A DNA stretch of 36,113 nucleotides from positions 1-36,113 of the forward strand of contig JAFYLE010000045.1 in assembly GCA_017537265.1 (NCBI GenBank), given 5' to 3'. The position numbers were made by a program, and so were the translations under genes. Positions 8,107 through 26,857 of this stretch are shown here, piece by piece (within the stretch, counting starts at the first letter, position 1; each line of letters begins with the position of its first letter). This stretch comes from Clostridia bacterium. Lineage in GTDB: Bacteria; Bacillota; Clostridia; Oscillospirales; SIG627. A model generated the notes under the pieces. That model did not search any database and was not told the origin of the DNA. It was given only the letters and a program-made list of their open reading frames with translations.

Positions 8107-8128
8107 TCGTCTTTTTACACAGAAAAGA

Positions 8129-8527: not shown

Positions 8528-8564
8528 AACGGTCTCCTTGACAAGTGTTTTTTGCTTTGCTACC

Positions 8565-8593: not shown

Positions 8594-8604
8594 GGGAGGT
8601 TTTT

Positions 8605-9208: not shown

Positions 9209-9210
9209 AC

Positions 9211-9245
9211 AAAAAAACGGAGAGTGCCGTGCACTCTCCGTTTTT
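9211..9245. terminator. Bidirectional terminator between LUD and DivPAP genes
   Basis: Stem ACGGAGAGTGC (9217-9227) and GCACTCTCCGT (9231-9241), loop CGT, with T tracts on both strands. It serves convergent genes ending at 9208 and 9256. Confidence 0.9.
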
Positions 9246-9255
9246 GTACGTTCTT

Positions 9256-9717: not shown

Positions 9718-9758
9718 ACAGAACTCCTTATCATTTACGGTAAGCGAACTTCCCCGCT

Positions 9759-9787
9759 ATTTTAACAGAAAACTCTCGCCTTTTCAA
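9759..9787 (-). promoter_or_regulatory. Possible promoter of the DivPAP gene
   Basis: On the minus strand, TTGAAA (9787-9782), 17 bp, TAAAAT (9764-9759). It overlaps the stop of the MFS gene, so the DivPAP gene may be read both from here and from upstream. Confidence 0.45.
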
Positions 9788-10953
9788 GTGCAATCTTTTC
9801 CTTTATCCGTTGCAAAGACGCTCTTCGGCAACACCAGAAGGAAAACAAGGAAGATGCCCGCGGCAAAAAACGGCAGAGCACCGATACCGAAAACAGAACT
9901 TACAAGCCCGAAGAGCGAAGGGGCGGAAATGATGCCCAAACTTGCCGCGGCAAGGAAGGAGCCCGTAAGGCTCTGCGACCTCTCCCGCCCGAAGATGACG
10001 GGGCAAAGGTGCATGAGATTCGGATAAACGGGTCCGAGCCCCGCGCCGATGAAGAAGAGCACGACGGCAGAGGACACGCCGGACAACGGCAAAAACAAAG
10101 CGGCGATGGCAAGCGCCACGACCGCCGAGCCGCCGAAAACCAAATACTTCGCACCGACTCTCTTTGCCAGAAGCCCCGCAACGAAACGCCCCGAGGCAAT
10201 GCCCGCGTAATAAAACGTCACGAGCAGGGCACCGAGCGAAGCAGAGAGGTCGTGCGCGCCGACAAGGTAGGTCGTGCCCCACGTGCCGACGGTAAACTCC
10301 AAGGCACAGGCAAACCCGAAGAGCACCCACGCGCCCTTGACACCGCGGGTCTTTGCCATTTCAAAAAAGCCCAAGGAAACAACCTTTTCCTCTTCGGCAC
10401 CCCGAACCGTTTTGCGCCAGAGCGGAAAGCTGAAGAGCAAGACGGCGGCGATCCCCGTTTGCAGAAGGCTGACCCAGCGAAAACCCGCACTCCACGTGCC
10501 AGCCGCAACAAGCGCGAAGGAAACGAGGGCGGGTGAGATCATGACCCCGATACCGTAGCAGGAGTGCAAAAAGTTCATTTGTCTGGCGCTGTAGTGCAGG
10601 GCGACGTATCCGTTGAGTCCGGAGTCCACCGCACCGGATCCGAGACCGAGCGGGATGCACAAGAGGAGCATCGGCACAAAGCTCTCGGTAAAAGACATGC
10701 AAAAGAGCACGAGCGCGGTCAAAAAAGCCGAGAAGACCGTCACACGGTACGTTCCAAAGCGCGAAAGCAGCCTGCCCGAAAAGAGGCTGGAGACAAAGGT
10801 GCCGCACGTACAGACGACGGGAATGACCCCGCCCCACGCGCTGTCCACGCCGAATTCGGGAAAAACGGCGGGCCAAGACGCACCGAACAGCGAATCCGGC
10901 ACGCCGATGGAGACGAACCCCACGTAGATGATCAAAAGCAAAAGTGTCGCCAC
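9784..10953 (-). CDS. MFS transporter, FucP/sugar-permease-like
   Basis: A 389-residue major facilitator protein with about twelve hydrophobic segments. The first is followed by GVPDSLFGASWPAV, and RLLSRFGTYRVT is the loop 2-3 motif. GSGAVDSGLNGYVALHYSARQMNFLHSCYGIG resembles the FucP-like branch (substrate site between TM4 and TM5). The central loop (about 185-200) is charged. The start is GTG at 10953 with AGGTAGGA upstream. Substrate cannot be told; sugar or related small molecule is likely from the subfamily. It has its own promoter. Confidence 0.85.
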   Translation of the reverse strand: MATLLLLIIYVGFVSIGVPDSLFGASWPAVFPEFGVDSAWGGVIPVVCTCGTFVSSLFSGRLLSRFGTYRVTVFSAFLTALVLFCMSFTESFVPMLLLCIPLGLGSGAVDSGLNGYVALHYSARQMNFLHSCYGIGVMISPALVSFALVAAGTWSAGFRWVSLLQTGIAAVLLFSFPLWRKTVRGAEEEKVVSLGFFEMAKTRGVKGAWVLFGFACALEFTVGTWGTTYLVGAHDLSASLGALLVTFYYAGIASGRFVAGLLAKRVGAKYLVFGGSAVVALAIAALFLPLSGVSSAVVLFFIGAGLGPVYPNLMHLCPVIFGRERSQSLTGSFLAAASLGIISAPSLFGLVSSVFGIGALPFFAAGIFLVFLLVLPKSVFATDKGKDCT

Positions 10954-10988
10954 GAAAGTCCTACCTTTATTTTCACAAAACTGCCAAA

Positions 10989-11017
10989 ATCTTACCGCAA
11001 ACGCGGCGCTTTGTCAA
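10989..11017 (-). promoter_or_regulatory. Promoter of the MFS transporter gene
   Basis: On the minus strand, TTGACA (11017-11012), 17 bp, TAAGAT (10994-10989). Confidence 0.65.
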
Positions 11018-11063
11018 GAAAACACGCCCCACCCCGCTCGTCTTCTCCGCCAAAAGAGCACAA

Positions 11064-11091
11064 AAAAAGCACCGCCGACGCGGTGCTTTTT
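11064..11091 (-). terminator. Terminator of purC
   Basis: GCACCGC / GCGGTGC stem (11069-11075, 11080-11086) extended by A/T pairs, with a T tract on the minus strand, 12 nt past the purC stop. Confidence 0.85.
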
Positions 11092-11102
11092 GATTTGGTA
11101 TC

Positions 11103-11798
11103 TTACAGGCCGAGTTTTGCAAAGAGCATGTTGGAGCAGTCAAGCTGGTTGGGGATGTTGCCCGCTTCATCCTTGACGCGCCAGATGTCGGGGGTGATCT
11201 CATCCGCGACGAAGATCTTGCCACCCTCGTCGTAGCCGACCTCGATCTTGAAGTCGATGAGGGTCAAATTCAGCGCAGCAAGCTCTTTCTTAAGCACTTC
11301 GCCGACCTTGAGGACGATGTTCTGCGCCTCGGCGTACTGGCCTTCCTTAAGGATGCCCTTCATGAGGCAAATACGCTCGGAGATGAGCGGGTCGCCCTGT
11401 TCGTCGTCCTTGAGCGTGACCTCGGCGTACGGCGGATCAAAGGGAATGCCCTCCGGCAGGGTGAAGCGACGGCACATACTGCCCGCGGTGAAGTAACGCA
11501 CGACGAACTCAAGCTTGGGTACGGTGAGGTTACGCACCTTCATCAGACCCGCGTCAACGTCACAGCCGAGGTAATGGGTGGGAATGCCGTTTTTCTCCAT
11601 GAGTTCAAAGAAGTACTTGGAGATGGCAAGTCCGACTTTGCCCTTGCCTTCCACGGAGCCGCCGACGGTGTTGGAACCCGGGTCGAACACGCCGTTTTCC
11701 CCGGTCATGCTGTCCTTGAAGAACAGATGCACGACGCCCGTCTCTTCGTCCAGAACCACGTTCTTGGTCTTGCCGGTGTACAAAACTTTCATAGCCAT
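11103..11798 (-). CDS. purC: Phosphoribosylaminoimidazole-succinocarboxamide synthase (SAICAR synthetase)
   Basis: PurC joins CAIR and aspartate with ATP in purine synthesis. Family motifs are complete: YTGKTKNV near the N-terminus (ATP loop), NTVGGSVEGKGKVGLAISKYFFELM, PTHYLG, EFVVRYFTAGSMCRR, and LIDFKIEVGYD with VADEITPD near the C-terminus (Mg/ATP site). The length of 231 fits bacterial PurC (~235). The ATG at 11798 has AGGAG seven bases upstream; the next ATG (11792) is the alternative. It is a single gene with its own promoter and terminator; guaA, another purine gene, lies in the same window but is not linked. Confidence 0.96.
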   Translation of the reverse strand: MAMKVLYTGKTKNVVLDEETGVVHLFFKDSMTGENGVFDPGSNTVGGSVEGKGKVGLAISKYFFELMEKNGIPTHYLGCDVDAGLMKVRNLTVPKLEFVVRYFTAGSMCRRFTLPEGIPFDPPYAEVTLKDDEQGDPLISERICLMKGILKEGQYAEAQNIVLKVGEVLKKELAALNLTLIDFKIEVGYDEGGKIFVADEITPDIWRVKDEAGNIPNQLDCSNMLFAKLGL

Positions 11799-11835
11799 AT
11801 AGTTTCTCCTAAAACGGTAGAATCACGATAGAAAA

Positions 11836-11864
11836 ATTATAAATGCTTTTTTGCTATTTTTCAA
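11836..11864 (-). promoter_or_regulatory. Promoter of purC
   Basis: On the minus strand, TTGAAA (11864-11859), 17 bp, TATAAT (11841-11836). No purine riboswitch or PurR box could be recognised in the 38-nt leader. Confidence 0.65.
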
Positions 11865-11893
11865 GAGTTTTTGCAAGAAAAACGCGTTTTTCC

Positions 11894-12583
11894 TCAAAGT
11901 CCGACGCTCGTCGTCTCACGGCGGGAGAGGAATACCTCCAAATTGCCGTTGCGGGCACGAACGGCATCGATGAGCGCCTTTTCGCTCGCGTCCTTCTTCA
12001 TGGTCACGTCATAGGTCAGGCGGAACATGCTGCCGAGGTTCACGGTCTTGACCTGCACGAGTTCCGCCTCGGTCGCAAATTCACCGAGCACCTCTTCAAA
12101 TACGCCCGTATAGTCAAGATCCTCCGGCACGGTAATGCGCAGGGTGCGGTACTTGACGGAGTTTTTCTTCTCCCCGAGATCCAGGAAATTGCAGACGATG
12201 AACGCCGCGCAAAGCACGAGCGTAAACAGCACGCCGTAAGCAAGGTAACCCATGCCGACGATGAGGCCCGCACCCATAGCGAGAAAGATCGCCACGATCT
12301 CCTTGGCGGTCCCCGGCACGGAGCGGAAGCGCACGAGGCTGAACGCGCCTGCCACCGCAACGCCTGCGCCGATATTGCCGTTGACCATCATGATGACCAC
12401 GGCGACCACGGCGGGAAGCAGCATGAGGGTGACCACGAAACTCTTGGTGTAGCGAGTCTTCACCATGTAAGAAAGCCCCATGAGCACGCCGATGACGAGC
12501 GCCGCTCCGACGCAGAGCAAAAACTTCTCCGGAGAAATGAGGGCGGTGAATTCGTTGTCAAACAAACCCTTGAATAAATCCAT
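11894..12583 (-). CDS. DUF4956 membrane protein of the CotH-VTC cluster
   Basis: A 229-residue protein with about four transmembrane helices in the first 130 residues, then a soluble ferredoxin-like C-terminal domain ('KYRTLRITVPEDLDYTGVF'). The family signature GAFSLVRFRSVPG is intact near 85-97. DUF4956 proteins have no proven activity, but the genes commonly accompany VTC-domain polyphosphate polymerases and CotH kinases, as here. The ATG at 12583 lies one base after the VTC stop, so translation is coupled; a GTG at 12595 is an unlikely alternative because the ribosome site touches it. No strong terminator was seen after it, only an AAAAACGCGTTTTT palindrome (11878-11891). Confidence 0.88.
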   Translation of the reverse strand: MDLFKGLFDNEFTALISPEKFLLCVGAALVIGVLMGLSYMVKTRYTKSFVVTLMLLPAVVAVVIMMVNGNIGAGVAVAGAFSLVRFRSVPGTAKEIVAIFLAMGAGLIVGMGYLAYGVLFTLVLCAAFIVCNFLDLGEKKNSVKYRTLRITVPEDLDYTGVFEEVLGEFATEAELVQVKTVNLGSMFRLTYDVTMKKDASEKALIDAVRARNGNLEVFLSRRETTSVGL

Positions 12584-12584
12584 T

Positions 12585-13298
12585 TTAATTTGCACCTTTC
12601 ACAGAAAAATTGGGGTAGATCAATTTCGTATATGCCGCACCGTATTTGGAAAACGGCGTTTTATAAATCTTCTCGCGCGAGAGCACGTCACACAGCCACA
12701 GCGGGATCGCACCGAAGGTCTTGATCTCCATCAGGCACCGTCCCTCCTCCAAAAGCGCACTCCCCCACGCCTCGCCGCCGAGGGTGAGTTCCTCCGTCCT
12801 TGCACGAATGGCCGTGTCAAAGGTGATGCGAAGTCCGTCTTGCGACTTTGCCTCGTAGGCCTCGCGGTCGTAAGCGAGAAAGACCTTGGGAGAAAGCGGC
12901 GCGTAGTGCGAGGCAAAGTAAGAGATCTCCTGCGCGATCTGTCCTCCGTCGGGCGCATCGCCCTTGCCGGAAAGCCACGCCAGGGCTTCTTCCTGCGGCA
13001 AAACGAGGCGACGTTTGTACACGACGGAGTCATACTTGCGCTTGATCTCCGCAAACACCCCCTCTCCCTCCTGCACGGGACGGTAGGAGCGCAGACGCAG
13101 TTTTTCCTTGAACACGGGTTTTTCCAGACTGCGGCGAATGAGGTAATACGTCTCGGTGTCAAAGTAGAGGTTGCGAATGGTGGTCTTGCCGTAAACGTCG
13201 GGACGCACGTAGCCTTCCATTGCCTCAAGCACCGCCGCTTTTTGCGCGTCTGTCAAGAGGTATTTGAGTTCAAAGCGTTTGAACACACTCTGATACAT
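12585..13298 (-). CDS. VTC-domain polyphosphate polymerase-like protein
   Basis: A 237-residue single VTC domain of the triphosphate-tunnel metalloenzyme fold. The basic and acidic tunnel residues are recognisable: RFELKY (8-13), IRNLYFDT (41-48), KEKLRLRSY (63-71), EIKRK (about 83-87), AYDREAYE, and LMEIK plus SKYGAAYTKL at the C-terminus. Yeast Vtc4 makes polyphosphate from ATP; bacterial relatives in CotH clusters have not been assigned with certainty. The ATG at 13298 has AAAGG six bases upstream; a GTG at 13322 overlapping the CotH stop (GTGA) is the alternative start. Confidence 0.9.
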   Translation of the reverse strand: MYQSVFKRFELKYLLTDAQKAAVLEAMEGYVRPDVYGKTTIRNLYFDTETYYLIRRSLEKPVFKEKLRLRSYRPVQEGEGVFAEIKRKYDSVVYKRRLVLPQEEALAWLSGKGDAPDGGQIAQEISYFASHYAPLSPKVFLAYDREAYEAKSQDGLRITFDTAIRARTEELTLGGEAWGSALLEEGRCLMEIKTFGAIPLWLCDVLSREKIYKTPFSKYGAAYTKLIYPNFSVKGAN

Positions 13299-13318
13299 GG
13301 CGTCCCTTTCCGACTTTC

Positions 13319-15286
13319 TCACAGAGCGGAAAGTCTCTTGTCAAGATAATGATAACGTTGGTCGATGAAGTCGCGAAGATAGACGATCTGCGACTCGTAG
13401 GTCGGGTACTTTTCGGGGTCCACGCTCGCCACGCCGACGCGTTTTGAGAGAATGTCCCATTTTTTGAAGTTCTCTTCCTGACTGCCCTCGAGCAGGGCGG
13501 CGTAATGATCCACCGCAAAAAGCGCGGTTTCGTAAAGGTCGTCTTTCACCTCGTTCCAGCGCGCCTTGAGACGACTTTGAAACGCCGGATATTCAATGAG
13601 GTAATCCATCCAGTTTTCGGTAATGTACTGATACGTTGACTCCGTAGTGCAAAAACCGTCGTAGCCCGCAAGATCCCCCAAGTGGTTGCCAAAGGCCATA
13701 TCGAAGTCCCACACGGGGCCGAGTTTCAGTTTGCCGCCTTGATTCTTGTAAAGATAGCAACTGCGATAGAAGGACGACTCCGTGTTGAACGTAAACTCGT
13801 TGATGATAAACCAATCCACCCAGGAATCGAGGTCAATGTACTCCTCCCAGCCGTCGTTTGCCACCACGGCCTCTTCCATCTTCAAAATATAGTTTTTGAC
13901 GTAAAGAAATTCCGGCGTGTTGGCGCGGGTGATCTTCGGCTCCTTCACAAAGATGCGCAGCACCATGGAGGTGTCGAAATAGTCGCGGTTGTAAACGTTC
14001 TCCTCATCGAAGTCCCAACCGATCTCCAGCAAAAAGCCGATGTCTGCCTTGCCCGTGGAGGAGAGCGTCGTCTCTCCCAAAGAGAGTCGGCCCGTGCCGT
14101 CCTCGATCTTGTCGGCAAACGTATAAACACCCATATACTCCCCATTGACGTACAGGTGCACGGGAACGTGCGTGGGCGTGTACTCCAAGCCCGAGAGACT
14201 CTGCGCCATGGTGTGTGCGACGCAGTTGCGGATCAGGCTCTTGTCCGTGTAGTTGGAGGCAAGCACCCAGTCGCGGTTTTTCTCCATGCCGAAAAGCTCT
14301 GCCCCTTGAGCGAGCTTCAGGCGGTACGCCTTTTTGGGGAACATGTTCCACGAGGCGTTGCCGCGGCCGCGCACTTCAGTCTCGTAAGAGACGCCGTCAA
14401 CGGTCAGCGTCGCGCGAAGATAGGTGTTCTTTTCCACGATGGGCGCGCCGCCCTCGGTGTCGATCTCCACCACGCTCAAGCGGTAGTTCAAACGGTCGGA
14501 AAACACGAGACACGTGCGCGTCTGCTCGCCGTTTCGAAGCGTCAGCGTATTCGTCGCGCCCGGGTCAAGCGCGCCTTGGTAAAGCACCGCGCCGTCCTCG
14601 GCGTAAAGGGCAACACAAGCGCCCTCCAAAGAGGACTCGGAAAGATGCATGGGCAGGTTGATCTGACAGACGTTTGCGTATGCATAAAGCGTGGCGTCCT
14701 CGACGCTCTTGCCGTTCTTAAGCGTCACCTGCACGCGGCAGGCACGGGCGGAGAGCGAACCGCCGAGCAAGCCCTCGGGCTTTGCCCCGTTTACGGTTGC
14801 CACGTTGTAATACATGGAAAGCTCTGCGGAGCCGATGCGCGTCCCCTCCTCCAAAACGAGGGCGGCATTCGGTGCATCCACGGTGAAGACACCGGCAGAA
14901 AGAAAGTCCAAGCTTGCAGAGGCGACGGAAATTTCCCCCTCGTCCTCCGTTACGATGCGCAAAGCCCCCTCCCACGCACACTCGGCGGGCGCGTAAAGAA
15001 CGCGAACGGGACGGGAGACTTCCAAAACAAAGTTTTCGGGGATCACAAAGGACTCGGTGATGCAAACCGTCGGGCGTGCCTCACTTTTGAAAAACTCACT
15101 TGAGTTTAAGATATTCGTAAGCTCATAAAATGATGCGGCGTAAAAGACGCCCTCCTCTTCCTCGTCGGGCAGGTCTTCAAGCTCGGGCAAATCGGGCGCA
15201 GAAACACCCTCCTGAGGCGCACTCGCGCCGCAGGAGACGAGACAAAACAGTACAAGCAAAAGACAGAAAACTTGTCGAAGTTCCAT
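13319..15286 (-). CDS. CotH-family secreted lipoprotein kinase
   Basis: A 655-residue lipoprotein: hydrophobic signal ending in the lipobox LVSC (C19), followed by an acidic linker (to about 47). Residues 50-290 form a beta-rich region of unknown function. The CotH kinase domain spans about 295-610, with RGRGNASW (306-313), basic FPKKAYRLKL, NRDWVLASNYTDKSLIRN (337-354) and the metal-binding WDFDMAFGN (526-534). Bacillus CotH phosphorylates spore-coat proteins with ATP. This copy would be anchored outside the membrane, where ATP is scarce, so donor and target are open questions. It has GGGAGGG before the ATG and leads an operon with the VTC and DUF4956 genes. Confidence 0.9.
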   Translation of the reverse strand: MELRQVFCLLLVLFCLVSCGASAPQEGVSAPDLPELEDLPDEEEEGVFYAASFYELTNILNSSEFFKSEARPTVCITESFVIPENFVLEVSRPVRVLYAPAECAWEGALRIVTEDEGEISVASASLDFLSAGVFTVDAPNAALVLEEGTRIGSAELSMYYNVATVNGAKPEGLLGGSLSARACRVQVTLKNGKSVEDATLYAYANVCQINLPMHLSESSLEGACVALYAEDGAVLYQGALDPGATNTLTLRNGEQTRTCLVFSDRLNYRLSVVEIDTEGGAPIVEKNTYLRATLTVDGVSYETEVRGRGNASWNMFPKKAYRLKLAQGAELFGMEKNRDWVLASNYTDKSLIRNCVAHTMAQSLSGLEYTPTHVPVHLYVNGEYMGVYTFADKIEDGTGRLSLGETTLSSTGKADIGFLLEIGWDFDEENVYNRDYFDTSMVLRIFVKEPKITRANTPEFLYVKNYILKMEEAVVANDGWEEYIDLDSWVDWFIINEFTFNTESSFYRSCYLYKNQGGKLKLGPVWDFDMAFGNHLGDLAGYDGFCTTESTYQYITENWMDYLIEYPAFQSRLKARWNEVKDDLYETALFAVDHYAALLEGSQEENFKKWDILSKRVGVASVDPEKYPTYESQIVYLRDFIDQRYHYLDKRLSAL

Positions 15287-15307
15287 AACGCCCTCCCAAT
15301 CGATAAG

Positions 15308-15336
15308 ATTATACCAAATTCGCGCCCATTAAGCAA
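15308..15336 (-). promoter_or_regulatory. Promoter of the CotH-VTC-DUF4956 operon
   Basis: On the minus strand, TTGCTT (15336-15331), 17 bp, TATAAT (15313-15308). It has the same hexamers and spacing as the SDR promoter at 16192-16220. Confidence 0.6.
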
Positions 15337-15340
15337 CACA

Positions 15341-15373
15341 AAAAAAGCACCCCCTCTTTTGGGGGGTGCTTTT
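15341..15373 (-). terminator. Terminator of the SDR gene
   Basis: AAAAGCACCCC / GGGGTGCTTTT stem with T-rich loop, followed by a T tract on the minus strand, just after the stop at 15385. Confidence 0.88.
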
Positions 15374-15384
15374 CGCTTGGCTGT

Positions 15385-16143
15385 TTAAAACGCGGTCCAG
15401 CCGCCGTCCACGGGCAGAATGGCGCCGCTGATGTACGAGGAATCGTCCGAGGCGAGGAAGAGCGCCGCGTTTGCAATGTCGCTCGTGCTGCCGGGCGCGG
15501 GCGCGAGTGCCTGCACGGGCTTAACGCGGGCAAAACCGTCCATGTTGGGCATGCCCATGGAAGTTGCGATCTCCGTGGAGATGCCGCCGGGGGCGATGAC
15601 GTTTGCGCGGATGCCCTCCTTCATGTAAGTGTAGGCAACGTGACGGGAGTAGGCGTTGACCGCGGCCTTGGAAGCGCAGTAAACGGCGCCCGCAGCCTGA
15701 TGCATGCTGCCGACGGAGGAGACGGTGATGATGTTGCCCCCGCTTTTCTGTTCCAAAAACACCTGACAGGCCTTGCGCATGGAGCAAAGAGGGCCGTACA
15801 CGTTGATACCCATGACGTAATCGTACTTTTCGTCCGTGACGTCTGCCATGGCCGCCATATCGTCCATAACGCCCGCGTTGTTAACGAGCACGTCAAGCTT
15901 GCCGAACTCTTTCACGGCAAGGTCGATCATAGCCTCGTTGTCCTCGCGGCGGGACACGTCACCGGTGAAGACGACGAGCTTGCCGGGGGCATCCTTCAAA
16001 GACTCTTTGAGCGCGGCGAGACGCTCTGCACGGCGGGCGACCGCCACCACGTTCGCACCCTCACGGACGAAGAGTTCCACGATGTGTTTGCCCATACCGG
16101 CGGAAGCACCCGTAACGACGACGGATTTGTTTTCAAGTTTCAT
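15385..16143 (-). CDS. Short-chain dehydrogenase/reductase (SDR)
   Basis: A classical SDR of 252 residues. The nucleotide motif TGASAGMG is at 11-18, NNAGVM near 87-92, the catalytic serine in the TVSSVGSMH stretch, and the YxxxK motif is YCASK. The C-terminal PGGISTEIATS is the usual substrate-loop region. The 'VAVARRAERL' segment after beta-2 has Arg residues, consistent with NADP(H) use but not decisive. Best matches by motif are 3-oxoacyl-ACP reductase or glucose dehydrogenase-like members; substrate unknown. AGGAGG lies eight bases before the ATG. It is a single-gene unit with its own promoter and terminator. Confidence 0.88.
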   Translation of the reverse strand: MKLENKSVVVTGASAGMGKHIVELFVREGANVVAVARRAERLAALKESLKDAPGKLVVFTGDVSRREDNEAMIDLAVKEFGKLDVLVNNAGVMDDMAAMADVTDEKYDYVMGINVYGPLCSMRKACQVFLEQKSGGNIITVSSVGSMHQAAGAVYCASKAAVNAYSRHVAYTYMKEGIRANVIAPGGISTEIATSMGMPNMDGFARVKPVQALAPAPGSTSDIANAALFLASDDSSYISGAILPVDGGWTAF

Positions 16144-16191
16144 GCGTAAATCCTCCTAAAAACGTAAATGATCTTGGTTTCATTGCCTTTT

Positions 16192-16220
16192 ATTATACCA
16201 AAGCGGCACTCCAAAAGCAA
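16192..16220 (-). promoter_or_regulatory. Promoter of the SDR gene
   Basis: On the minus strand, TTGCTT (16220-16215), 17 bp, TATAAT (16197-16192). Confidence 0.6.
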
Positions 16221-16223
16221 CAA

Positions 16224-16258
16224 AAAAGGAAAACGCCCCGTTCTGCGGGGCGTTTTTT
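16224..16258 (-). terminator. Terminator of the GH3-ECF operon
   Basis: AAAACGCCCCG / CGGGGCGTTTT stem (16230-16240, 16246-16256), which begins at the ECF stop codon itself, then CCTTTTTTG on the minus strand. Confidence 0.88.
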
Positions 16259-16757
16259 ACTTCAAATTGATCTTTGCTTTTTCGAACACTTTCATCAAAA
16301 GCGTGCCGACGACAATGCCGAACACTCCCTGCACGGCGTTTGCGGGGACGTTGACGAGCGAGGCGGAAAAACCATAGAGAAAGCCCTCGAACACGAGGTA
16401 ACCGAGCACCATCAAGACCTCTGCCAAAACACCGCTGAGGATTTGGGACGGCAGTTTTTTCATGCGCTTGTTCAAAAGGCCGAAGCCGTAAAACGCGACG
16501 AGCGCCATGAGTCCTTTGATGAGAAAGGTCGCGGGAGCGTACAGGGCGTAGCCCAAAAGCAAGTCTGCCAAAGCGCTTCCCAGCCCCGCGGCCAAGAAGC
16601 CGTACAACGGCGAAAGCGCAAAGCCCGCAAGCAGCACGACCGAATCGCCGAGATTGACGTAACCGTTCAGCGGAGACGGGACCTTGATGATCATAGTCGC
16701 CACACAGGCAAGTGCCGCAATGAGAGCGGCGTAAACAACTTTACGGATTCTGTTCAT
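16257..16757 (-). CDS. ECF transporter S component
   Basis: A 166-residue, very hydrophobic protein with about five or six membrane helices. It shows the S-component pattern of a short basic N-terminus (MNRIRKVVYAALIAALACVAT), followed by NLGDSVVLLAGFALSPLYG and a Gly/Ala-rich helix (FLAAGLGSALADLLLG). S components bind a vitamin or related micronutrient and share a separate ECF energising module, not present here. The substrate cannot be read from the sequence. It starts 14 nt after the GH3 stop, with AAGGAT before the ATG, so it is probably cotranscribed with the glycosidase. Confidence 0.85.
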   Translation of the reverse strand: MNRIRKVVYAALIAALACVATMIIKVPSPLNGYVNLGDSVVLLAGFALSPLYGFLAAGLGSALADLLLGYALYAPATFLIKGLMALVAFYGFGLLNKRMKKLPSQILSGVLAEVLMVLGYLVFEGFLYGFSASLVNVPANAVQGVFGIVVGTLLMKVFEKAKINLK

Positions 16758-16771
16758 AATTCCATCCTTAC

Positions 16772-18943
16772 TTACAATTCGATCTCGCAGGAGAGGTTCT
16801 CCACCAGAATGCGGTGGACCCCCTCGTTTTTGACGGTCTTCATATTTTCGTCAACGTAAGTGAAGTCCGCATCGGTGAGGGTAAACTCCACGGTCTTCTT
16901 CTCGCCGGGCTTCAGATTGACCTTTTCAAAGGCGCGCAATTTCTTGACGAACGGCGTAGTCGGGCAGTAGAGCATCTTCACGTACACGAGCACGCTCTCG
17001 TCAATTTCATAGCCGCCCGTGTTTTCCACGTCCACACAAACGGAAACGGTACCGTCCGCCGCCTTCTGCGCACGCAGATCGGTGTACTCCAGCGTGGTGT
17101 AAGAGAGACCGTAGCCGAAGGGATACCACGCATCGGGCGAGGCAAGCACGTAATCGCGGCCGGGAGAGGCAAGACTGCCGGGGCGCTTATAAAAGCCGCG
17201 CGCGGACACCTTGCAGTTGTAATAACACGGAATGTGACCCGCCGTCTGCGGCATGGACATGGAGAGCTTGGCGCTGGGCGTCTTGTCTCCGAAGATGAGG
17301 TTTGCAAACGCAGTGCCGCTCTGCTCGCCCGCACCCCAAGAGAACATGAAGGCGTTCACCCTCTCCACCTCGTTTTGAATGGTGAAGGGACGGCCCGCGT
17401 ACAGCACGAGCACGGTGGGCTTGCCGATCTCGGCGATCTCTTCAAACAGGCGTTTTTGCGAGGGCAGGAAGTTCAAGTCGTGTGCGTCGTAGCCCTCACC
17501 GCAGGTGATCTCATCGTGGCGGAACGCGCCGCCGCCGACACCGCCGCCGGTATCGGTACTGTCACCGAGGACCAAAAGGACCACGTCGGCTTCCTTTGCC
17601 GCCTGCACCGCCGCCGCGACGTCCTCGTCCGTGGTGGTGATGTGGTTGCAGCCGCGCGCGTAGATCACGCGGTCTTCGCCGAGGCGAGCTTTCATGCCGT
17701 CGAGGAAATCCACGCAAGCTTGCGTCTGGCCGACGTAATCGCCGAGGAAGCTGTCGCGCGCGTTGTTGCCGATGACGGCAATTTTGCCGATCTTCTTTTC
17801 GTCAAGCGGCAGAATGCCGTCGTTTTTCAACAGCAGGATGGACTCTTCGTCCATCTTGAGCGCGAGGTTCTTTGCCGCCTCAGTATGCATATTCGCTCTC
17901 GCTTCTCTGTCTGCATAGGGATTCTCAAAGAGGCCGAGCTCAAACTTCAAAATCAAAATACGGCGCACCGCCTCGTCAATGAGGGCAGCGTCGATCTCGC
18001 CGTTCTTCACCGCCTCGCGGAATTCAAGGCCGTAGCAGCGGGGGCTCGGCGCCTCAATATCCACACCCGCGCGAATGGCCTGTTTGCCTGCGGTAAGGTA
18101 GTCCTTGGCGGAATGTTGGAAGGTGTGCAGCATGTGCATGGCACCCCAGTCGGAAATAGTCGTGCCCGTAAAGCCAAGCTCGCCGCGCAAAAGGTCGCGC
18201 AAAAGACGCTTGGAGGCGTGCACGGGCTCCCCGTCCACTTCGTTGTAAGCAGGCATCACGGACTTCACGCCCGCATCAATGCATTTTTGGAACGGCTCCA
18301 CCATGACCTCGCGCAATTCGCGCTCGCCCACGTGATTGGGTGCCAGGTTGATACCGCCCTCCGGCACGCCGTAGGCAATGTAGTGCTTCGCGGTGGCGGC
18401 AACGCCCTCGTCCTGCACGCCCTTGACGTACTGCGCGCCGAGTTCGCCCGAGAGGTACGGGTCCTCGCCGTAGGTCTCCTGCGCTCTGCCCCATCTGGGA
18501 TCGCGGGGGATGTCCACGTTGGGCGCAAAGACCTGACGCACGCCGATGGCGCGGCACTCGCGGCCGATGACGCGTGCCATTTCGTAAATATTCTCACGGT
18601 TAAAGCTACCCGCAAGACCGATGCACTGCGGGAAGACCGTCGCACGCTTGTTGTAGAGGCCGTGCAGGGACTCAAACGCCATGATCAGCGGAATCCCAAG
18701 GCGGCTCTTTTCCAAAAAGTGCGCCTGAATTTTATCCAGCGCCTCCTCGTCCTCAAGGTTGTCCAGATTGCCGAAAGTGCCGGCGCGCATGGGCAGATCC
18801 TTGTCTGCCTTCACGTCGTCGCAAAGCACGTTGAGACGCTCGAAAAAGTGCATTTGGTCAATCTTTTCATCCAACGTCATGCGTGAGAGAAGATCCTCCA
18901 CACGCTCGCTGATCGGAAGCGATGCATTCTTATACTTTTCCAT
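16772..18943 (-). CDS. Glycoside hydrolase family 3 beta-glucosidase-like enzyme
   Basis: A 723-residue GH3 enzyme without a signal peptide, so probably cytoplasmic. The N-terminal TIM-barrel domain (1-320) has APNVDIPRDPRWGRAQETYGEDP, KHYIAYG and the nucleophile motif SDWGAMH (D265). The alpha/beta sandwich domain (about 370-590) carries the acid/base region, and a fibronectin III-like domain fills the C-terminus ('KKLRAFEKVNLKPGEKKTV'). The layout resembles BglX. It likely cleaves beta-glucosides or xylosides taken up from plant material; exact specificity is not evident. The start at 18943 (MEKYKNASLP) has only a modest AGGTG site; upstream in-frame sequence has no homology. Confidence 0.92.
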   Translation of the reverse strand: MEKYKNASLPISERVEDLLSRMTLDEKIDQMHFFERLNVLCDDVKADKDLPMRAGTFGNLDNLEDEEALDKIQAHFLEKSRLGIPLIMAFESLHGLYNKRATVFPQCIGLAGSFNRENIYEMARVIGRECRAIGVRQVFAPNVDIPRDPRWGRAQETYGEDPYLSGELGAQYVKGVQDEGVAATAKHYIAYGVPEGGINLAPNHVGERELREVMVEPFQKCIDAGVKSVMPAYNEVDGEPVHASKRLLRDLLRGELGFTGTTISDWGAMHMLHTFQHSAKDYLTAGKQAIRAGVDIEAPSPRCYGLEFREAVKNGEIDAALIDEAVRRILILKFELGLFENPYADREARANMHTEAAKNLALKMDEESILLLKNDGILPLDEKKIGKIAVIGNNARDSFLGDYVGQTQACVDFLDGMKARLGEDRVIYARGCNHITTTDEDVAAAVQAAKEADVVLLVLGDSTDTGGGVGGGAFRHDEITCGEGYDAHDLNFLPSQKRLFEEIAEIGKPTVLVLYAGRPFTIQNEVERVNAFMFSWGAGEQSGTAFANLIFGDKTPSAKLSMSMPQTAGHIPCYYNCKVSARGFYKRPGSLASPGRDYVLASPDAWYPFGYGLSYTTLEYTDLRAQKAADGTVSVCVDVENTGGYEIDESVLVYVKMLYCPTTPFVKKLRAFEKVNLKPGEKKTVEFTLTDADFTYVDENMKTVKNEGVHRILVENLSCEIEL

Positions 18944-23725: not shown

Positions 23726-23817
23726 GGAGAGATGGCTGAGCTGGTCGAAGGCGCACGATTGGAAATCGTGTAGGCGTTAATAGCGTCTCGAGGGTTCGAA
23801 TCCCTCTCTCTCCGCCA
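23726..23817 (+). tRNA. tRNA-Ser (anticodon GGA)
   Basis: A 92-nt class II tRNA with encoded CCA. The acceptor stem is GGAGAGA / TCTCTCC with discriminator G. The anticodon loop TTGGAAA sits between CACGA and TCGTG, giving anticodon GGA (reads UCC and UCU). A long variable arm follows, then the GGGTTCGAATCCC T arm. The last 21 bases are repeated exactly at 25275-25295, so this gene is the probable insertion target for the cassettes that follow. Confidence 0.97.
23797..23817 (+). repeat. Attachment-like repeat, copy A (3' end of tRNA-Ser)
   Basis: From CGAATCCC to the CCA end of the tRNA; identical over 21 bp to 25275-25295, 1478 bp away. Direct duplication of a tRNA 3' end is the usual mark of site-specific integration. 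Confidence 0.7.
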
Positions 23818-23820
23818 ACA

Positions 23821-23862
23821 AAAAAAGAACCTTTGTCTACCAAGACAAAGGTTCTTTTTTTG
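23821..23862 (+). terminator. Terminator of tRNA-Ser, at the start of cassette 1
   Basis: An 18-bp stem (23821-23838 with 23843-23860), loop ACCA, then T. It shares position, A/T ends and the loop region TTTGTCTACCAA with the terminator at 25296-25338, although the stems differ. Confidence 0.9.
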
Positions 23863-23864
23863 AA

Positions 23865-24036
23865 CTAAGTGTGCCTTGCGGCACGATAAGTACACCTTCG
23901 GTGCGTGAAGCAATGCTTCGCATCGTGAAGTGCCTGCGGGCGTGAGTGGCACACTTAACTTCACATTGTGCAAAGCACAATACTTCACAGCGGCGTTGCC
24001 GCTGCTTCACTTGGGCGAAGCCCAAACTTCACTGAA
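23865..24036. repeat. Hairpin array 1: variable small stem-loops with constant linkers
   Basis: Short perfect hairpins follow each other: GTGCC/GGCAC, CACC/GGTG, ATGC/GCAT, GCC/GGC, ATTGTGC/GCACAAT, AGCGGC/GCCGCT and TTGGGC/GCCCAA. In the first half the linker is GTGAAG; in the second half it is its complement, CTTCAC (four copies). AAGTGTGCC (near 23868) can also pair with GGCACACTT (near 23948), closing the first part into a branched structure. No coding frame fits. The array lies between the tRNA terminator and the promoter of the four-helix-bundle gene. Confidence 0.75.
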
Positions 24037-24038
24037 TG

Positions 24039-24067
24039 TTGCTTGTTACAGATGTTTACGATATAAT
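24039..24067 (+). promoter_or_regulatory. Promoter of the four-helix-bundle / nuclease operon
   Basis: TTGCTT (24039-24044), 17 bp, TATAAT (24062-24067), directly after the last CTTCAC linker. Confidence 0.7.
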
Positions 24068-24090
24068 ATATTTGAATAGGAGGTGTCACT

Positions 24091-24444
24091 ATGTCAGAAA
24101 GCAAATTGAGAACGCAATCAATGGATTTTGCAGTGTCCATTATTAACCTTGTCAAACAACTGAAAGAAAAACGAGAATCCATTATTTCTAATCAAATCGG
24201 CAGAAGCGGTACTTCTATTGGTGCTAATATCCGTGAAGCACAATATGCTCACGGCAAAGCTGACTTCATTGCAAAATTGCAAATTGCTCTCAAAGAAGCC
24301 AATGAAACCGAGTATTGGTTAGAACTGTTATTCAAAACGAATTATATAACCGAAGAAGAATATAAATCCCTCGATTCTGTCTGCACAAGCGTTCGTGTTA
24401 TGCTAATCTCATCCATCAACACCGCGAAGGAGAACTCTAAATGA
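24091..24444 (+). CDS. Four-helix-bundle protein (23S rRNA IVS / Avd-like family)
   Basis: A 117-residue, almost wholly helical protein with the family landmarks: FAVSIINLVKQL (helix 1), SNQIGRSGTSIGANIREAQ (turn and helix 2), KADFIAKLQIALKEANETEYWLELL (helix 3) and a C-terminal helix. Members are encoded in 23S rRNA intervening sequences; relatives (Avd) are accessory subunits of diversity-generating retroelements and bind nucleic acid. No reverse transcriptase is visible here. AGGAGG precedes the ATG. The stop overlaps the start of the nuclease gene (ATGA), so the two are made together. The base composition is much more AT-rich than the surrounding chromosome. Confidence 0.88.
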   Translation: MSESKLRTQSMDFAVSIINLVKQLKEKRESIISNQIGRSGTSIGANIREAQYAHGKADFIAKLQIALKEANETEYWLELLFKTNYITEEEYKSLDSVCTSVRVMLISSINTAKENSK

Positions 24445-25118
24445 AAATTGTTAGTTGGAATTGCGGTGGTAAATTTCGCGAAAAGTTTCAAGATATCATT
24501 GCTGTAGATGCAGACATATACGTTATTCAAGAATGTGAAAACCCTGCCGAATGTAAAAGTATCGCATATAGAAAATTTGCACACAATTATCTTTGGATTG
24601 GTGAAAATAAAAATAAAGGGTTAGGTGTTTTTGCAAAAAACGATATTCAGTTAAGGGAAAATAATTGGCAGAAATATTGCTTGCGAAACTTTCTGTCTGT
24701 ACGCGTTAACGACCTCTTTGATTTGGTTGCTGTGTGGGCATGCAAGCCATATATAGAAGAATACTACATATATCAAAGTATCAATATTCCAAACTATACA
24801 ACGCAAACTGTTATCATTGGGGATTTTAATAGTAATGCCATTTGGGATAAGAAGCACGATACGCGAACTCATAGTTCCGTTGTGCAACAGCTCGCCGAAA
24901 TCGGACTGCATTCAGCGTATCATCAGATTAGCGGTGAAAAACAGGGTGAAGAAACTATCTCAACTTTTTATTTGTATCGACATAGTGACAAAGGTTACCA
25001 TATTGACTATTGCTTTACTGGCAGAAGCAATATAAAAGATTTTCACGTCTTGCACAATATAGATTGGTTGGTAAGATCAGACCATATGCCTATCTTAATT
25101 GAAATTAGCAATAAATAA
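24441..25118 (+). CDS. Endonuclease/exonuclease/phosphatase (EEP, DNase I-like) family protein
   Basis: A 225-residue EEP-fold protein with the full set of catalytic motifs: N7 (VSWNCGG), E31 (VIQECENP), D128 and N130 (IIGDFNSN), and D214-H215 (RSDHMPI). This fold hydrolyses phosphodiesters in DNA, RNA or small molecules; the substrate is not evident. It is shorter than ExoIII-type repair enzymes (~260). Translationally coupled to the four-helix-bundle gene by an ATGA overlap, with AAGGAG upstream, so a functional pair (for instance nucleic-acid binder plus nuclease) is a reasonable inference. AT-rich like its partner and ends shortly before the 107-bp cassette-end repeat. Confidence 0.88.
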   Translation: MKIVSWNCGGKFREKFQDIIAVDADIYVIQECENPAECKSIAYRKFAHNYLWIGENKNKGLGVFAKNDIQLRENNWQKYCLRNFLSVRVNDLFDLVAVWACKPYIEEYYIYQSINIPNYTTQTVIIGDFNSNAIWDKKHDTRTHSSVVQQLAEIGLHSAYHQISGEKQGEETISTFYLYRHSDKGYHIDYCFTGRSNIKDFHVLHNIDWLVRSDHMPILIEISNK

Positions 25119-25129
25119 ATTATCGGGTA

Positions 25130-25236
25130 TACTTTTACTTACTTTACCTCGATTTTACTACGTTTAGTTACTCTTTCGCAAATAAAAAACAGTCACTTTA
25201 CGTGGCTGTTTTTTATTTTTATGTGTTCTGAGAGAG
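25130..25236 (+). repeat. Cassette-end repeat, copy 1
   Basis: About 107 bp, matching 26166-26273 with one 1-base indel (TTACTTTACC versus TTACTCTTACC) and one T/C change. It starts with several TTACT motifs, continues through a terminator hairpin (AAAAAACAGTCAC / GTGGCTGTTTTTT) and ends in CTGAGAGAG, which can pair with the tRNA-tail sequence that follows. Confidence 0.85.
25186..25219 (+). terminator. Terminator at the end of cassette 1
   Basis: AAAAAACAGTCAC / GTGGCTGTTTTTT with loop TTTAC inside the 107-bp repeat; the T run continues as TTTTTTATTTTT. Confidence 0.8.
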
Positions 25237-25295
25237 AGGGGGGTTCGAAGGGCGCGGCTCTGCCCGCAGGCAGGCGAATCCCTCTCTCTCCGCCA
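25230..25295 (+). repeat. tRNA-Ser-tail-like junction between cassettes (attachment copy B)
   Basis: 25275-25295 repeats the last 21 bases of tRNA-Ser exactly, including CCA. Before it stands GGGGTTCGAA, a T-arm half, separated by about 25 GC-rich bases (GGGCGCGGCTCTGCCC and following). GAGAGAGAGGG (25230-25240) is perfectly complementary to 25280-25290, so the whole junction is a long hairpin. No D arm or anticodon arm is present, so it is not a working tRNA. Confidence 0.75.
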
Positions 25296-25338
25296 AAAAA
25301 GAAGTAACTTTTGTCTACCAAAAGTTACTTCTTTTTTT
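25296..25338 (+). terminator. Terminator-like hairpin opening cassette 2
   Basis: GAAGTAACTTTTG / CAAAAGTTACTTC (25301-25313, 25319-25331) between A6 and T7. It is the counterpart of 23821-23862, with a different stem but the same loop region. Confidence 0.85.
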
Positions 25339-25340
25339 AT

Positions 25341-25520
25341 CCAAGCCGCAGGCTTGGTATATCATCACCGCGCGAAGTGCGGTGTATATCATCAGCCCCT
25401 TTGGGGCTGTATATCATCACGCGCCAGCGTGTATTTTCCTGCGGCTTGATGAGATACAACACTTCGTGTTGATGATATACAATGCTTCGCATTGATGATA
25501 TGCAACGGCAAGCCGTTGAT
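25341..25520. repeat. Hairpin array 2: variable stem-loops with inverting linkers
   Basis: Hairpins CCAAGCC/GGCTTGG, CCGCGC/GTGCGG, GCCCC/GGGGC and CACGC/GCGTG are joined by TATATCATCA. After about 25440 the linker is TGATGATATA, its exact complement, joining AACAC/GTGTT, AATGC/GCATT and CAACGGC/GCCGTTG. The plan equals that of array 1 with other linkers, and the AATGC-TTC-GCATT type unit occurs in both. No coding frame. It ends at the promoter of the metallopeptidase gene. Confidence 0.8.
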
Positions 25521-25544
25521 TTGTTCCCGAAAATGTAATATAAT
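25516..25544 (+). promoter_or_regulatory. Promoter of the metallopeptidase gene
   Basis: TTGATT (25516-25521), 17 bp, TATAAT (25539-25544); the same hexamers and spacing as the tRNA-Ser promoter. The -35 overlaps the last hairpin. Confidence 0.7.
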
Positions 25545-25579
25545 ACAGTTAGATAAACTTGAATTGGTAGGTGAGATAT

Positions 25580-26122
25580 ATGTTTGATTATCAAAGACAC
25601 TTTGATGCCTATTGTAATACCGAAGGGCTTGACATATATCTGTCATTTGATATGCCTTCCGGATATGAGGATGCATATGGAACATTTGACGTGACAACAA
25701 AAACCGTTTTTATCAATGATACAATTTTGAGAAATTCTCCCGATTACGAAAAATTGTTCTTTCTGTTCCACGAATTAAGACATGCAACCCAATATCTTGC
25801 ACCAAACAAATTTGATGCTGCAATCAGTAAGAGCCTACAATATGTGATTATGTTTGATGGCACATGCTACAAACTGATTGATGGTGCTTATCATAGATGC
25901 AAATTAGATGGCGAAGAAGATTATTTTGTAAATCTGTATCTTGGACAACCATACGAAATTGATGCCAATACTTTTGCCTATGAATATACAAAAAGTATTT
26001 ATGGGGATTCCGAACCGCTGAAGAAGTTATACGAGTTTTGTGTTCCGCATCAACCGATGCCAAACGAAATTTATGATTCTGTTTTTGCGTTGATTGACGA
26101 GAAATTAAAAGCAGAACCATAA
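25580..26122 (+). CDS. ImmA/IrrE-like zinc metallopeptidase
   Basis: A 180-residue protein with a zincin motif HELRH (H64, E65, H68) in FLFHELRHATQYLA and a downstream YEIDANTFAYEY (E126 as likely third ligand), the arrangement of ImmA/IrrE gluzincins. Those proteases cleave repressors (for example ImmR or DdrO) in mobile elements and stress responses, usually beside a helix-turn-helix gene; none is here. There is no signal peptide. The start ATG at 25580 is preceded by AGGTGAG; a GTG at 25571 is in frame but lies on the ribosome site. AT-rich, and the only cargo gene of cassette 2. Its target is unknown. Confidence 0.75.
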   Translation: MFDYQRHFDAYCNTEGLDIYLSFDMPSGYEDAYGTFDVTTKTVFINDTILRNSPDYEKLFFLFHELRHATQYLAPNKFDAAISKSLQYVIMFDGTCYKLIDGAYHRCKLDGEEDYFVNLYLGQPYEIDANTFAYEYTKSIYGDSEPLKKLYEFCVPHQPMPNEIYDSVFALIDEKLKAEP

Positions 26123-26165
26123 AAATCCGTTATACAAATTCCAATTTATCGAACAGATCGCACAC

Positions 26166-26273
26166 TACTTTTACTTACTCTTACCTCGATTTTACTACGT
26201 TTAGTTACTCTTTCGCAAATAAAAAACAGTCACTTCACGTGGCTGTTTTTTATTTTTATGTGTTCTGAGAGAG
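26166..26273 (+). repeat. Cassette-end repeat, copy 2
   Basis: Second copy of 25130-25236, about 1.04 kb downstream, with its own terminator hairpin (26221-26252). It ends cassette 2 just as copy 1 ends cassette 1. Confidence 0.85.
26221..26256 (+). terminator. Terminator at the end of cassette 2
   Basis: AAAAAACAGTCAC / GTGGCTGTTTTTT, loop TTCAC, within the second 107-bp repeat. Confidence 0.8.
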
Positions 26274-26295
26274 GGGGTGAGACGATTCCCCTCTC
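26269..26295 (+). repeat. Degenerate attachment copy C
   Basis: After the second 107-bp repeat, GAGAGGGG (26269-26276) pairs with CCCCTCTC (26288-26295) around a loop containing CGATTCCCC, close to the CGAATCCC of the tRNA end. It lacks the CCA part. It is likely an old or imperfect tRNA-tail remnant. Confidence 0.45.
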
Positions 26296-26297
26296 AT

Positions 26298-26326
26298 TTG
26301 CTAATTTCTCTCTTTTCTGTTATACT
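26298..26326 (+). promoter_or_regulatory. Promoter of the pyrophosphatase gene
   Basis: TTGCTA (26298-26303), 17 bp, TATACT (26321-26326), starting right after attachment copy C. Confidence 0.55.
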
Positions 26327-26368: not shown

Positions 26369-26857
26369 ATGAAACACGTTGTGGACGCCTTGATCGAGAT
26401 CCCGCTCGGCTCCAAGAACAAATACGAAATGGACGAGAAGGGCAAGATCCGCCTGGATCGCGTGCTGTACGCCTCCATGATCTACCCTGCGGAATACGGC
26501 ATCGTGGAAAACACGCTCGCACCCGACGGAGATCCCTTGGACATTCTCGTCATCTGCAGCGAGGCAAGCTTCCCCGGCTGCACCGTGCCCGCGCGCATTC
26601 TGGGCTACCTCTCCCTCATCGACGGAGGCAAGGTGGACTACAAGCTCATCTCCGTGGTGGACTGTGACCCGCGCTACGACGACAAGCAGGAGCTTTGCGA
26701 CCTGCCGCCCTTCGTCTTAAAAGAGATCGCAAACTTCTTTGCAAACTACAAGGTACTGCAAGGCGTTGAGGTCAAGGTGGGCGAGTACCACGGCAAGGCA
26801 GAGGCACTGCAGATCATCGATTCCTGCAAGAACGCCTATCGCGCCGTAAACTGCTGA
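26369..26857 (+). CDS. ppa: Inorganic pyrophosphatase (family I)
   Basis: This soluble enzyme hydrolyses pyrophosphate and pulls biosynthetic reactions forward. The 162-residue protein has the family I motifs: IEIPLGSKNKYEMD near the N-terminus, AEYGIVENTLAPDGDPLDILV (metal-binding Asp cluster), DPRYDD and EYHGKAEAL. The start ATG at 26369 has AAAAAGGAG eight bases upstream; the in-frame sequence before it belongs to the cassette border. Composition returns here to the chromosome's normal GC-rich style, so it is the first native gene after the insertions. It has its own promoter and a bidirectional terminator. Confidence 0.95.
   Translation: MKHVVDALIEIPLGSKNKYEMDEKGKIRLDRVLYASMIYPAEYGIVENTLAPDGDPLDILVICSEASFPGCTVPARILGYLSLIDGGKVDYKLISVVDCDPRYDDKQELCDLPPFVLKEIANFFANYKVLQGVEVKVGEYHGKAEALQIIDSCKNAYRAVNC

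Follow-up and report, generated by a model that had tools for sequence, protein, structure and literature searches.

Stacked gene cassettes behind a tRNA-Ser gene of an uncultured gut bacterium, probably mobile and related to units at tRNA genes of many isotypes in Clostridia

In integrons, small single-gene cassettes with varied cargo are arrayed behind one docking site; at the end of each cassette, an imperfect palindrome folds at the DNA level with compensated pairing, and the promoterless cassettes are read from Pc at attI. CRISPR arrays and casposons, which use Cas1, grow in a polarised manner from a leader-like site and duplicate a repeat as they do so, and casposons target tRNA 3' ends. 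Tycheposons are cargo elements at tRNA genes that carry or derive from tyrosine-recombinase transposons; they are much larger than the units described here, and we know of no hairpin ladder or folded, tRNA-matched site in them. They are mentioned in PMC10872708. Islands and ICEs that use a tyrosine integrase insert at tRNA 3' ends, duplicate the tail and leave the tRNA intact (Islander, PMC4383910). S23 proteins are known from intervening sequences in 23S rRNA (PF05635), for example the Coxiella IVS (PMC4990558), where the insert that contains them is small, looks selfish and lies in a structural RNA gene.

The window analysed here, the whole 36,113-nt stretch of DNA from an uncultured gut bacterium, contains two AT-rich cassettes 3' of a tRNA-Ser(GGA) gene, with a GC content of 35-36% versus 56% for the chromosome (Table 1). 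The initial annotation had described two units of the same plan, and the repeats, their order and the shared plan proved real. The 21-bp tail CGAATCCCTCTCTCTCCGCCA has two exact copies only in the 36-kb window, at 23797 and, as had been reported, at 25275-25295. Both units end in a 97-nt module followed by a tRNA-tail copy, and inspection of the sequence revealed promoter-like sites and then AT-rich genes in both. The long repeat, previously put at about 107 bp, measured 97 nt at 98% identity (25144-25240 and 26181-26277), or about 112 nt with the 15 nt upstream, the copies differing by one indel; nothing beyond these two copies was found elsewhere in the genome. A degraded third tail had been placed at 26269-26295; it is present (26265-26300), but its sequence is palindromic, GAGAGGGGG...CCCCTCTC. 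No recombinase was found when the main ORFs of the window were scanned with Pfam, in agreement with the earlier reading, and no integrase gene of their own was found in the window's cassettes or between the tail copies of minimal units. These results support the view that the cassettes are self-contained, have promoters of their own and are stacked on the 3' end of a tRNA, with no enzyme in cis. A second array is present in the same genome (locus L300).

Table 1. Features of the two-cassette region, in window positions
Position	Strand	Feature	Evidence
23726..23817	+	tRNA-Ser(GGA), docking site	ARAGORN; the repeated tail is its final 21 nt (23797-23817)
23818..23863	+	Terminator hairpin, bidirectional, 20-bp perfect stem, abuts CCA	Inverted-repeat search; fold z -8.5
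23864..24032	.	Hairpin ladder 1; spacer GTGAAG left, CTTCAC right	Sequence, locus comparison, folding
24039..24067	+	Promoter-like TTGCTT-17-TATAAT, cassette 1	Consensus match only
24091..24444	+	S23 / 23S rRNA IVP-like four-helix-bundle protein, 117 aa	PF05635 E 1.5e-29; TIGR02436; PDB 2rld E 3e-35
24441..25118	+	Cargo gene 1, endonuclease/exonuclease/phosphatase family	PF03372 E 2.9e-6
25130..25218	+	Cassette 1 3' module (TACTTTTACTTACT...CTTTCGCAAA) and terminator	Direct and inverted repeats
25229..25295	.	Distal folded site: inverted T-arm (25231-25247), short loop, direct tail (25275-25295, ends CCGCCA)	Repeat search; fold z -2.8
25296..25338	+	Cassette 2 terminator hairpin, abuts tail copy	Inverted repeat; fold z -7.8
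25341..25519	.	Hairpin ladder 2; spacers TATATCATCA left, TGATGATATA right	Direct and inverted repeats; fold z -6.2
25539..25544	+	-10-like TATAAT, cassette 2	Sequence
25580..26122	+	Cargo gene 2, putative metallopeptidase (DUF6782 / M78-like)	PF20573 E 2.3e-5, below its cut-off
26166..26255	+	Second 3'-module copy and terminator	Direct repeat, 98% identity
26265..26300	.	Degenerate distal site (GAGAGAGGGGG...ATTCCCCTCTC)	Fold z -3.1

Related units occur behind tRNA genes of many isotypes. A tRNA lay upstream in 59 of 80 S23 loci, the window included (loci at 75-95% amino acid identity), and most loci lacking one were cut by contig ends. The tRNA mostly stood 210-280 nt ahead of the S23 gene, the insert beginning directly at the tRNA end, and the isotypes used were Ser, Glu, Arg, Thr, Pro, Val, Gly, Trp, Tyr, Leu, Gln, His, Asp, Lys and Cys. 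Two loci, one at tRNA-Arg (L037) and one at tRNA-Val (L040), showed 93.9% identity across the 676 nt that begin with the tRNA tail and end at the S23 stop; beyond this point the cargo differed. Cassettes with a near-identical front (terminator, ladder and S23) occupied different tRNAs, and the cargo behind it switched abruptly (62 clusters). Gene-less units of 161-205 nt with a conserved core were found in 80 of 391 Clostridia genomes, and unit sizes ranged from 0.16 to 1.5 kb. The tree of the conserved core contained 16 isotype changes across 10 isotypes, and one core occurred at many isotypes within a single genome (G007, G008). With near-identical cassettes and cores at different isotypes, the element is not specific for one tRNA gene. 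The family is widespread in gut Clostridia and apparently undescribed; no published description of such units was found in the openly accessible literature.

The duplication of a tRNA 3' end is also the hallmark of tyrosine-integrase islands (Islander, PMC4383910), and phage-type integrases are present in many of the genomes. The units might then be satellites or decayed, CIME-like remnants of tRNA-targeting islands, with the distal site as attR and the units as internal deletions. We consider this unlikely, as one core at many isotypes per genome departs from the one-target habit of islands and the minimal units have precise boundaries and near-constant length. Ordinary integrase-bearing inserts at the same tRNAs (L360 at tRNA-Leu, L362 at tRNA-Pro) moreover have a different att block of their own that lacks the inverted arm, and the small unit is located outside them; they were rejected as carriers of the site for this reason. 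The units differ from islands and ICEs in their size of 0.16-1.5 kb, their lack of an integrase, the use of one core at many isotypes, the inverted T-arm and the stacking.

The site that closes a complete unit has two arms, an inverted T-arm and a directly oriented duplicate of the final 16-22 nt of the local tRNA; in one large family of sites, the sequence enclosed by the arms is conserved across Clostridia. Forty of 51 sites had a same-strand tRNA within 3 kb, and the direct arm matched it better than every foreign tail in 36 of these 40; in the class-wide set, the local tRNA was the best match in 19 of 20, so that a direct repeat of the tRNA 3' end stands at both borders. About 10 sites per set lacked a tRNA within range, and many of these lay at contig ends. 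The sites used to build model R1 included their arms, which favours the finding of sites beside tRNAs; the comparison of each arm with its local tRNA serves as the control for this. In the window, the inverted T-arm and direct tail of cassette 1 form one long-stem hairpin, a palindromic site. In the distal sites of the window itself the core is short, and R1 does not match them; they therefore join the family by architecture and not by sequence. Among S23 loci, a permutation test of the inverted arm was clear in few (the window, L037, L040, L048 and L079), the match of L040 lies inside a distant gene and is probably due to chance, and most had no recognisable inverted arm within 2.5 kb. We rejected the tail and terminator as one target duplication, since the terminator of the last unit is usually not the same as the following one. 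The inverted T-arm copy, the DNA-level folding and the spread over isotypes had not featured in the initial annotation.

The source of the tail copy was indicated by tRNA-Asp (L345) and tRNA-Leu (L351), which have no encoded CCA and whose tail copies likewise lack it, indicating that the copy derives from DNA and not from mature tRNA. An insert that starts exactly after CCA at all isotypes, and a far-end inverted complement that resembles a primer-binding site, would suit retro-insertion primed by mature tRNA, its 3'-CCA extended by a reverse transcriptase. The CCA-less copies largely refute this scheme, the DNA-like pairing also speaks against it, and we regard it as scarcely credible.

In the R1 family, compensatory double changes were found in 20 of 31 pairs of the folded site. 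The pairs comprised 13 G-T, 10 A-C and 1319 Watson-Crick cells, compared with 144, 8 and 1623 in the tRNA stems of the loci (p 8e-23 and 5e-6), a G-T share of about 1% versus 8%. Compensatory changes almost without G-T pairs indicate folding at the DNA level; in this family, the cassette 3' end bears an attC-like, DNA-folding site. The folded DNA may be the recombination substrate.

A terminator hairpin directly follows both exact tails, as the initial annotation had stated (z -8.5 and -7.8 versus shuffles), and that of cassette 1 is near-identical to those of L037 and L040. The "array of small hairpins" behind each terminator was upheld insofar as both arrays fold better than shuffles (z -3.3 for ladder 1 and -6.2 for ladder 2), but they are really ordered ladders, with a spacer on the left and its reverse complement on the right. 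This pattern, with at least 3 copies of each, occurred in 76 of 118 S23 loci versus 1 of 118 shuffles, and the ladder-2 type was also found in L186/L272 (tRNA-Arg ACG) and in L309 and L310 (tRNA-Arg CCG). The ladder hairpins contained 18 G-T versus 31 A-C pairs, and their fold energy showed a small plus-strand preference (p 3e-4, related sequences); there is no G-T excess, and we take the ladders as DNA-like. The strong conserved structure might also belong to a functional RNA, in which ladder and distal site would be transcribed regulatory or processing structures travelling with the tRNA, and Rfam Gut-1 matched both halves of ladder 1 weakly (38 and 37 bits, cut-off 50). However, the two matches lie on opposite strands, G-T pairs in the folded site are nearly absent and as rare as A-C, and both features are located behind a terminator and ahead of a promoter, which makes this account very improbable. 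Above cut-off, the Rfam scan returned only tRNA and 5S rRNA.

Regarding the genes, the start of cargo gene 1 overlaps the S23 stop (ATGA), an overlap also seen in many S23 loci, and cassette 2 has no S23 gene. The solved S23 relative 2rld was deposited with five chains, and S23 may bind the ladder, which is a guess. Nearest-neighbour S23 proteins shared the same spacer class in 60 of 67 cases; this association disappears below 70% identity and is explained by descent, so a coupling of S23 to spacer was rejected. Across the class, the S23 genes with the highest scores are not adjacent to tRNAs. Unlike the S23 intervening sequences, the present inserts follow tRNA genes, are not inserted in an rRNA helix, and carry a ladder and cargo.

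Occupancy differed between relatives. The orthologous tRNA-Arg(CCG) locus had five states in five congeners, empty in G011 and with four different fillings in G007, G008, G009 and G012; its downstream flanks are not all syntenic, so it is not a perfect empty-site pair. At the window's aconitase flank, G020 has the tRNA-Ser without a cassette, while the contig of G013 ends before the tRNA and that of G014 at it; the pyrophosphatase flank gave only family homologues of about 40% identity. Relatives of the 3' module occupy the same place in L035, L037, L039 and L062, and occur also in L049 and in G001, G002, G007 and G008. The mobile-cassette idea would have failed had relatives always carried the region in the same form or had the repeats never bounded other cargo; occupancy varies, and the module relatives do bound other cargo elsewhere. 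Intact sites lie nearest the tRNA and decayed ones distally, which fits a "newest first" order of insertion. This polarity and the tail duplicated at each step also fit a Cas1/casposase-like or other transferase that would join the insert beside a tRNA acting as leader and copy the 16-22-nt tail much as a CRISPR repeat is copied at the leader end, as does the use of tRNA 3' ends by casposons. Such an enzyme leaves the inverted T-arm and conserved folded core unexplained, and the inserts here, unlike those of CRISPR arrays and casposons, contain either genes or a folded core that has an inverted arm; we judge this explanation improbable.

No integron integrase (TIGR02249) was found in any of the 391 Clostridia genomes, the window's own included, in a search run without a positive control; against the integron integrase profile, the tyrosine recombinases of G000, G007, G008 and G010 scored 66-98 bits (cut-off 265). 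The initial annotation had suggested looking for a co-occurring tyrosine recombinase; those found in unit-rich and unit-free genomes alike were Xer-like and showed no association with the units, and no other dedicated enzyme was found. The likeness to integron cassettes drawn in that annotation is supported. Compared with integrons, however, the docking site here is a tRNA gene of any isotype with arms that match the local tRNA, the cassettes have their own promoter-like sites, predicted behind terminators in the window, gene-less units are common, and no integron integrase was found.

Taken together, each unit starts directly after the last base of the tRNA with its own terminator, the tRNA remains intact, and the new tail stands at the far end; many units carry a ladder and a promoter, together with a single cargo gene that can be exchanged and, frequently, an S23 gene. 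These are very probably mobile units at tRNA 3' ends. We propose that site-specific recombination would join the tRNA tail, as an attI-like site, to a distal site folded as a single strand or cruciform, as an attC-like site. Catalysis would be supplied in trans by a host or helper recombinase, of which the tyrosine type would be the most likely; that a tyrosine recombinase is the catalyst is put forward only tentatively. Re-use of the tail would let cassettes accumulate. On this proposal, the region probably consists of two mobile cassettes without an integrase, arrayed at the 3' end of a tRNA gene and moved in this way. It is possible, though less secure, that an undescribed DNA recombination system, widespread in Clostridia, is at work, in which stackable cassettes dock at the 3' ends of tRNA genes whatever the isotype, through a folded site whose arms are refitted to each new tRNA, and with S23 and the ladder as a possible targeting complex. 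If the proposal is true, folded-DNA sites with built-in tRNA addresses would be a possible tool, and the enigmatic S23 four-helix proteins would gain a new genomic home. Many tRNA genes of gut Clostridia would then be places of integron-like gathering and exchange of single genes, which would account for some of the gene turnover in these bacteria and for contigs that break right behind tRNAs.

Two AT-rich cassettes lie 3' of tRNA-Ser(GGA) in the window (36% and 35% GC vs 56% outside), which is contig C48 of its genome (1.12 Mb, 80% complete). In the first, the S23 four-helix gene overlaps an endonuclease/exonuclease/phosphatase-family gene, and the distal palindrome has an inverted copy of the T-arm ahead of the direct tail. 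One further exact copy of the 21-nt tRNA-Ser tail was found in the window. The aconitase-tRNA-Ser order of this locus recurs in genome G020, there without a cassette; in G014, the contig stops at the tRNA. A second array in the own genome, at tRNA-Arg(ACG), comprises one minimal (gene-less) unit, a tail, and a cassette carrying a gene for a putative membrane protein.

A search with the window's S23 protein found at least 80 loci at 75-95% identity to it, in genomes of gut Clostridia and in a few others. Among the matches listed, 59 S23 loci (window included) had a tRNA upstream, and the insert began with the nucleotide next to the tRNA's 3' end; fifteen isotypes were represented. Loci without a tRNA were mostly truncated by a contig end. 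Cassettes at different tRNAs share their front, which runs from the terminator to the stop codon of S23; L037 (Arg) and L040 (Val) are 93.9% identical there over 676 nt, and beyond it the cargo differs. The cargo behind S23 fell into 62 clusters, including NUDIX, MazG-like, P-loop kinase-like, nucleotidyltransferase, and pyrophosphatase-like proteins, and at many loci its start overlaps the S23 stop as ATGA. Locus L062 carries pyrophosphatase-like cargo, and relatives occur in L078 and L104.

The ladder is an ordered hairpin series with a short spacer in its left half and the reverse complement in its right half. A 6-mer repeated three or more times and followed by three or more copies of its complement was present in 76 of 118 S23 loci vs 1 of 118 shuffles, indicating that the ladder is no chance product. 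Both halves of ladder 1 resemble Rfam Gut-1 below its cut-off, and part of what is classed as Gut-1 'RNA' may be DNA elements, namely ladder halves of this kind. In two Lentisphaerae bins (L110, L113), S23 cassettes lie behind tRNA-Ser with the ladder spacer order reversed; if the binning is correct, these cassettes are outside Clostridia.

Features of the window and of compared loci
Location	Coordinates	Strand	Feature
Window, cassette 1			terminator, ladder, promoter-like site, S23 gene, cargo gene, 3' module with terminator, distal palindrome
Window, ladder 1 left half	23862-23936	+	Gut-1 resemblance, 38.2 bits (cut-off 50)
Window, ladder 1 right half	23953-24034	-	Gut-1 resemblance on opposite strand, 37.2 bits (cut-off 50)
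Window, S23 gene	24091-24444	+	
Window, cassette 2			order of cassette 1, other ladder, no S23; cargo a putative metallopeptidase
Window, behind array	26369-26857		inorganic pyrophosphatase gene; relatives in its family of genomes only ~40% identical
L039, behind tRNA-Pro	4324-4960		entire ladder in three tandem copies within one cassette
L285	6035-7087		~1-kb insert, inverted ends GCTACCTACTATAAAGCAGAT...ATCTGCTTTATCGCAGG, splitting the fourth minimal unit's terminator
L360, tRNA-Leu	16098-17520	reverse complement of locus	integrase-bearing element between tRNA and older minimal unit
L362, tRNA-Pro	2625-16140	reverse complement of locus	integrase-bearing element between tRNA and older minimal unit
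tRNA-Arg(CCG), G011			empty
tRNA-Arg(CCG), G008			three to four minimal units
tRNA-Arg(CCG), G007			ladder, S23, decayed site
tRNA-Arg(CCG), G009			two ladders with tail copy, no gene
tRNA-Arg(CCG), G012			another ladder, plus S23 and cargo

The distal end of L037, used as query, gave more than 40 matches in seven family genomes. Many lay in gene-less units, 161-171 nt long and bounded by consecutive tails; some of these stood in tandem. These minimal units were found behind Arg, Lys, Thr, His, Leu, Glu, and Ser tRNAs, and their alignment showed a common core, CGTTAAGAAAACAGTCC-TGT-GGACTGTTTTTAG. The aligned sites form a structure of 31 pairs, with compensatory changes in 20. G-T made up ~1% of base-pair cells, about as many as A-C (13 vs 10), compared with 8% in the tRNA stems from the loci examined (144 G-T vs 8 A-C), which suggests that the site folds as DNA, not RNA. 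The L285 insert looks like another small transposon.

Sites were then detected with R1, a covariance model of one large site family, built with the arms included; it missed the distal sites of the window itself, whose core is short. We placed 51 R1 sites in context, in genomes that are mostly metagenome assemblies breaking at these repeats: 40 had a same-strand tRNA no more than 3 kb upstream, and in 36 it was within 400 nt. In 36 of 40 sites, no foreign tail matched the direct arm as well as the local tRNA did. Class-wide, 80 of 391 genomes carried sites; a tRNA was upstream in 20 of the 29 loci inspected, and the local tRNA was the best arm match in 19 of these 20. On the core tree, 10 isotypes require 16 isotype changes; cores in G009 (His) and G012 (Glu) are nearly identical, with arms fitted to each tRNA. 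S23 was present in 45 of the 80 R1-positive genomes vs 62 of the 311 others (p 8e-10 without correction for descent). The top-scoring S23 genes of the class had no tRNA neighbours and are probably rRNA or other S23 branches. One complete genome (G243:C1) carries several identical S23 genes at spaced positions, possibly 23S rRNA intervening sequences of a branch distinct from tRNA-docked S23.

Occupancy differs between relatives: five congeners share an orthologous tRNA-Arg(CCG) gene located behind a D,D-carboxypeptidase-like gene, and the contents of the locus in each are tabulated. An integron, as judged by its enzyme, was rejected because no integron integrase was found in 391 Clostridia genomes or among the tyrosine recombinases of four genomes, and an ordinary island because the units lack an integrase and use many tRNA targets. 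Real islands do lie between tRNA and unit in L360 and L362, with att blocks of their own, showing layered insertion at a single tRNA. The units were likewise rejected as rRNA intervening sequences and as tRNA-primed retroelements. No description of them was found in a search of papers from outside subscription journals.

The tRNA-Asp (L345) and tRNA-Leu (L351) genes encode no CCA, and their tail copies likewise lack it, indicating that the tail copy derives from DNA. These results show docking at the tRNA end, a re-created tail, a folded site, cargo exchange, and related units at different isotypes. We infer that the tRNA tail would recombine with the folded site through an activity supplied in trans. 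An inverted arm carried along would fit the old tRNA, not the new one; its refitting could be due either to a templated step or to selection that favours pairing in the stem.
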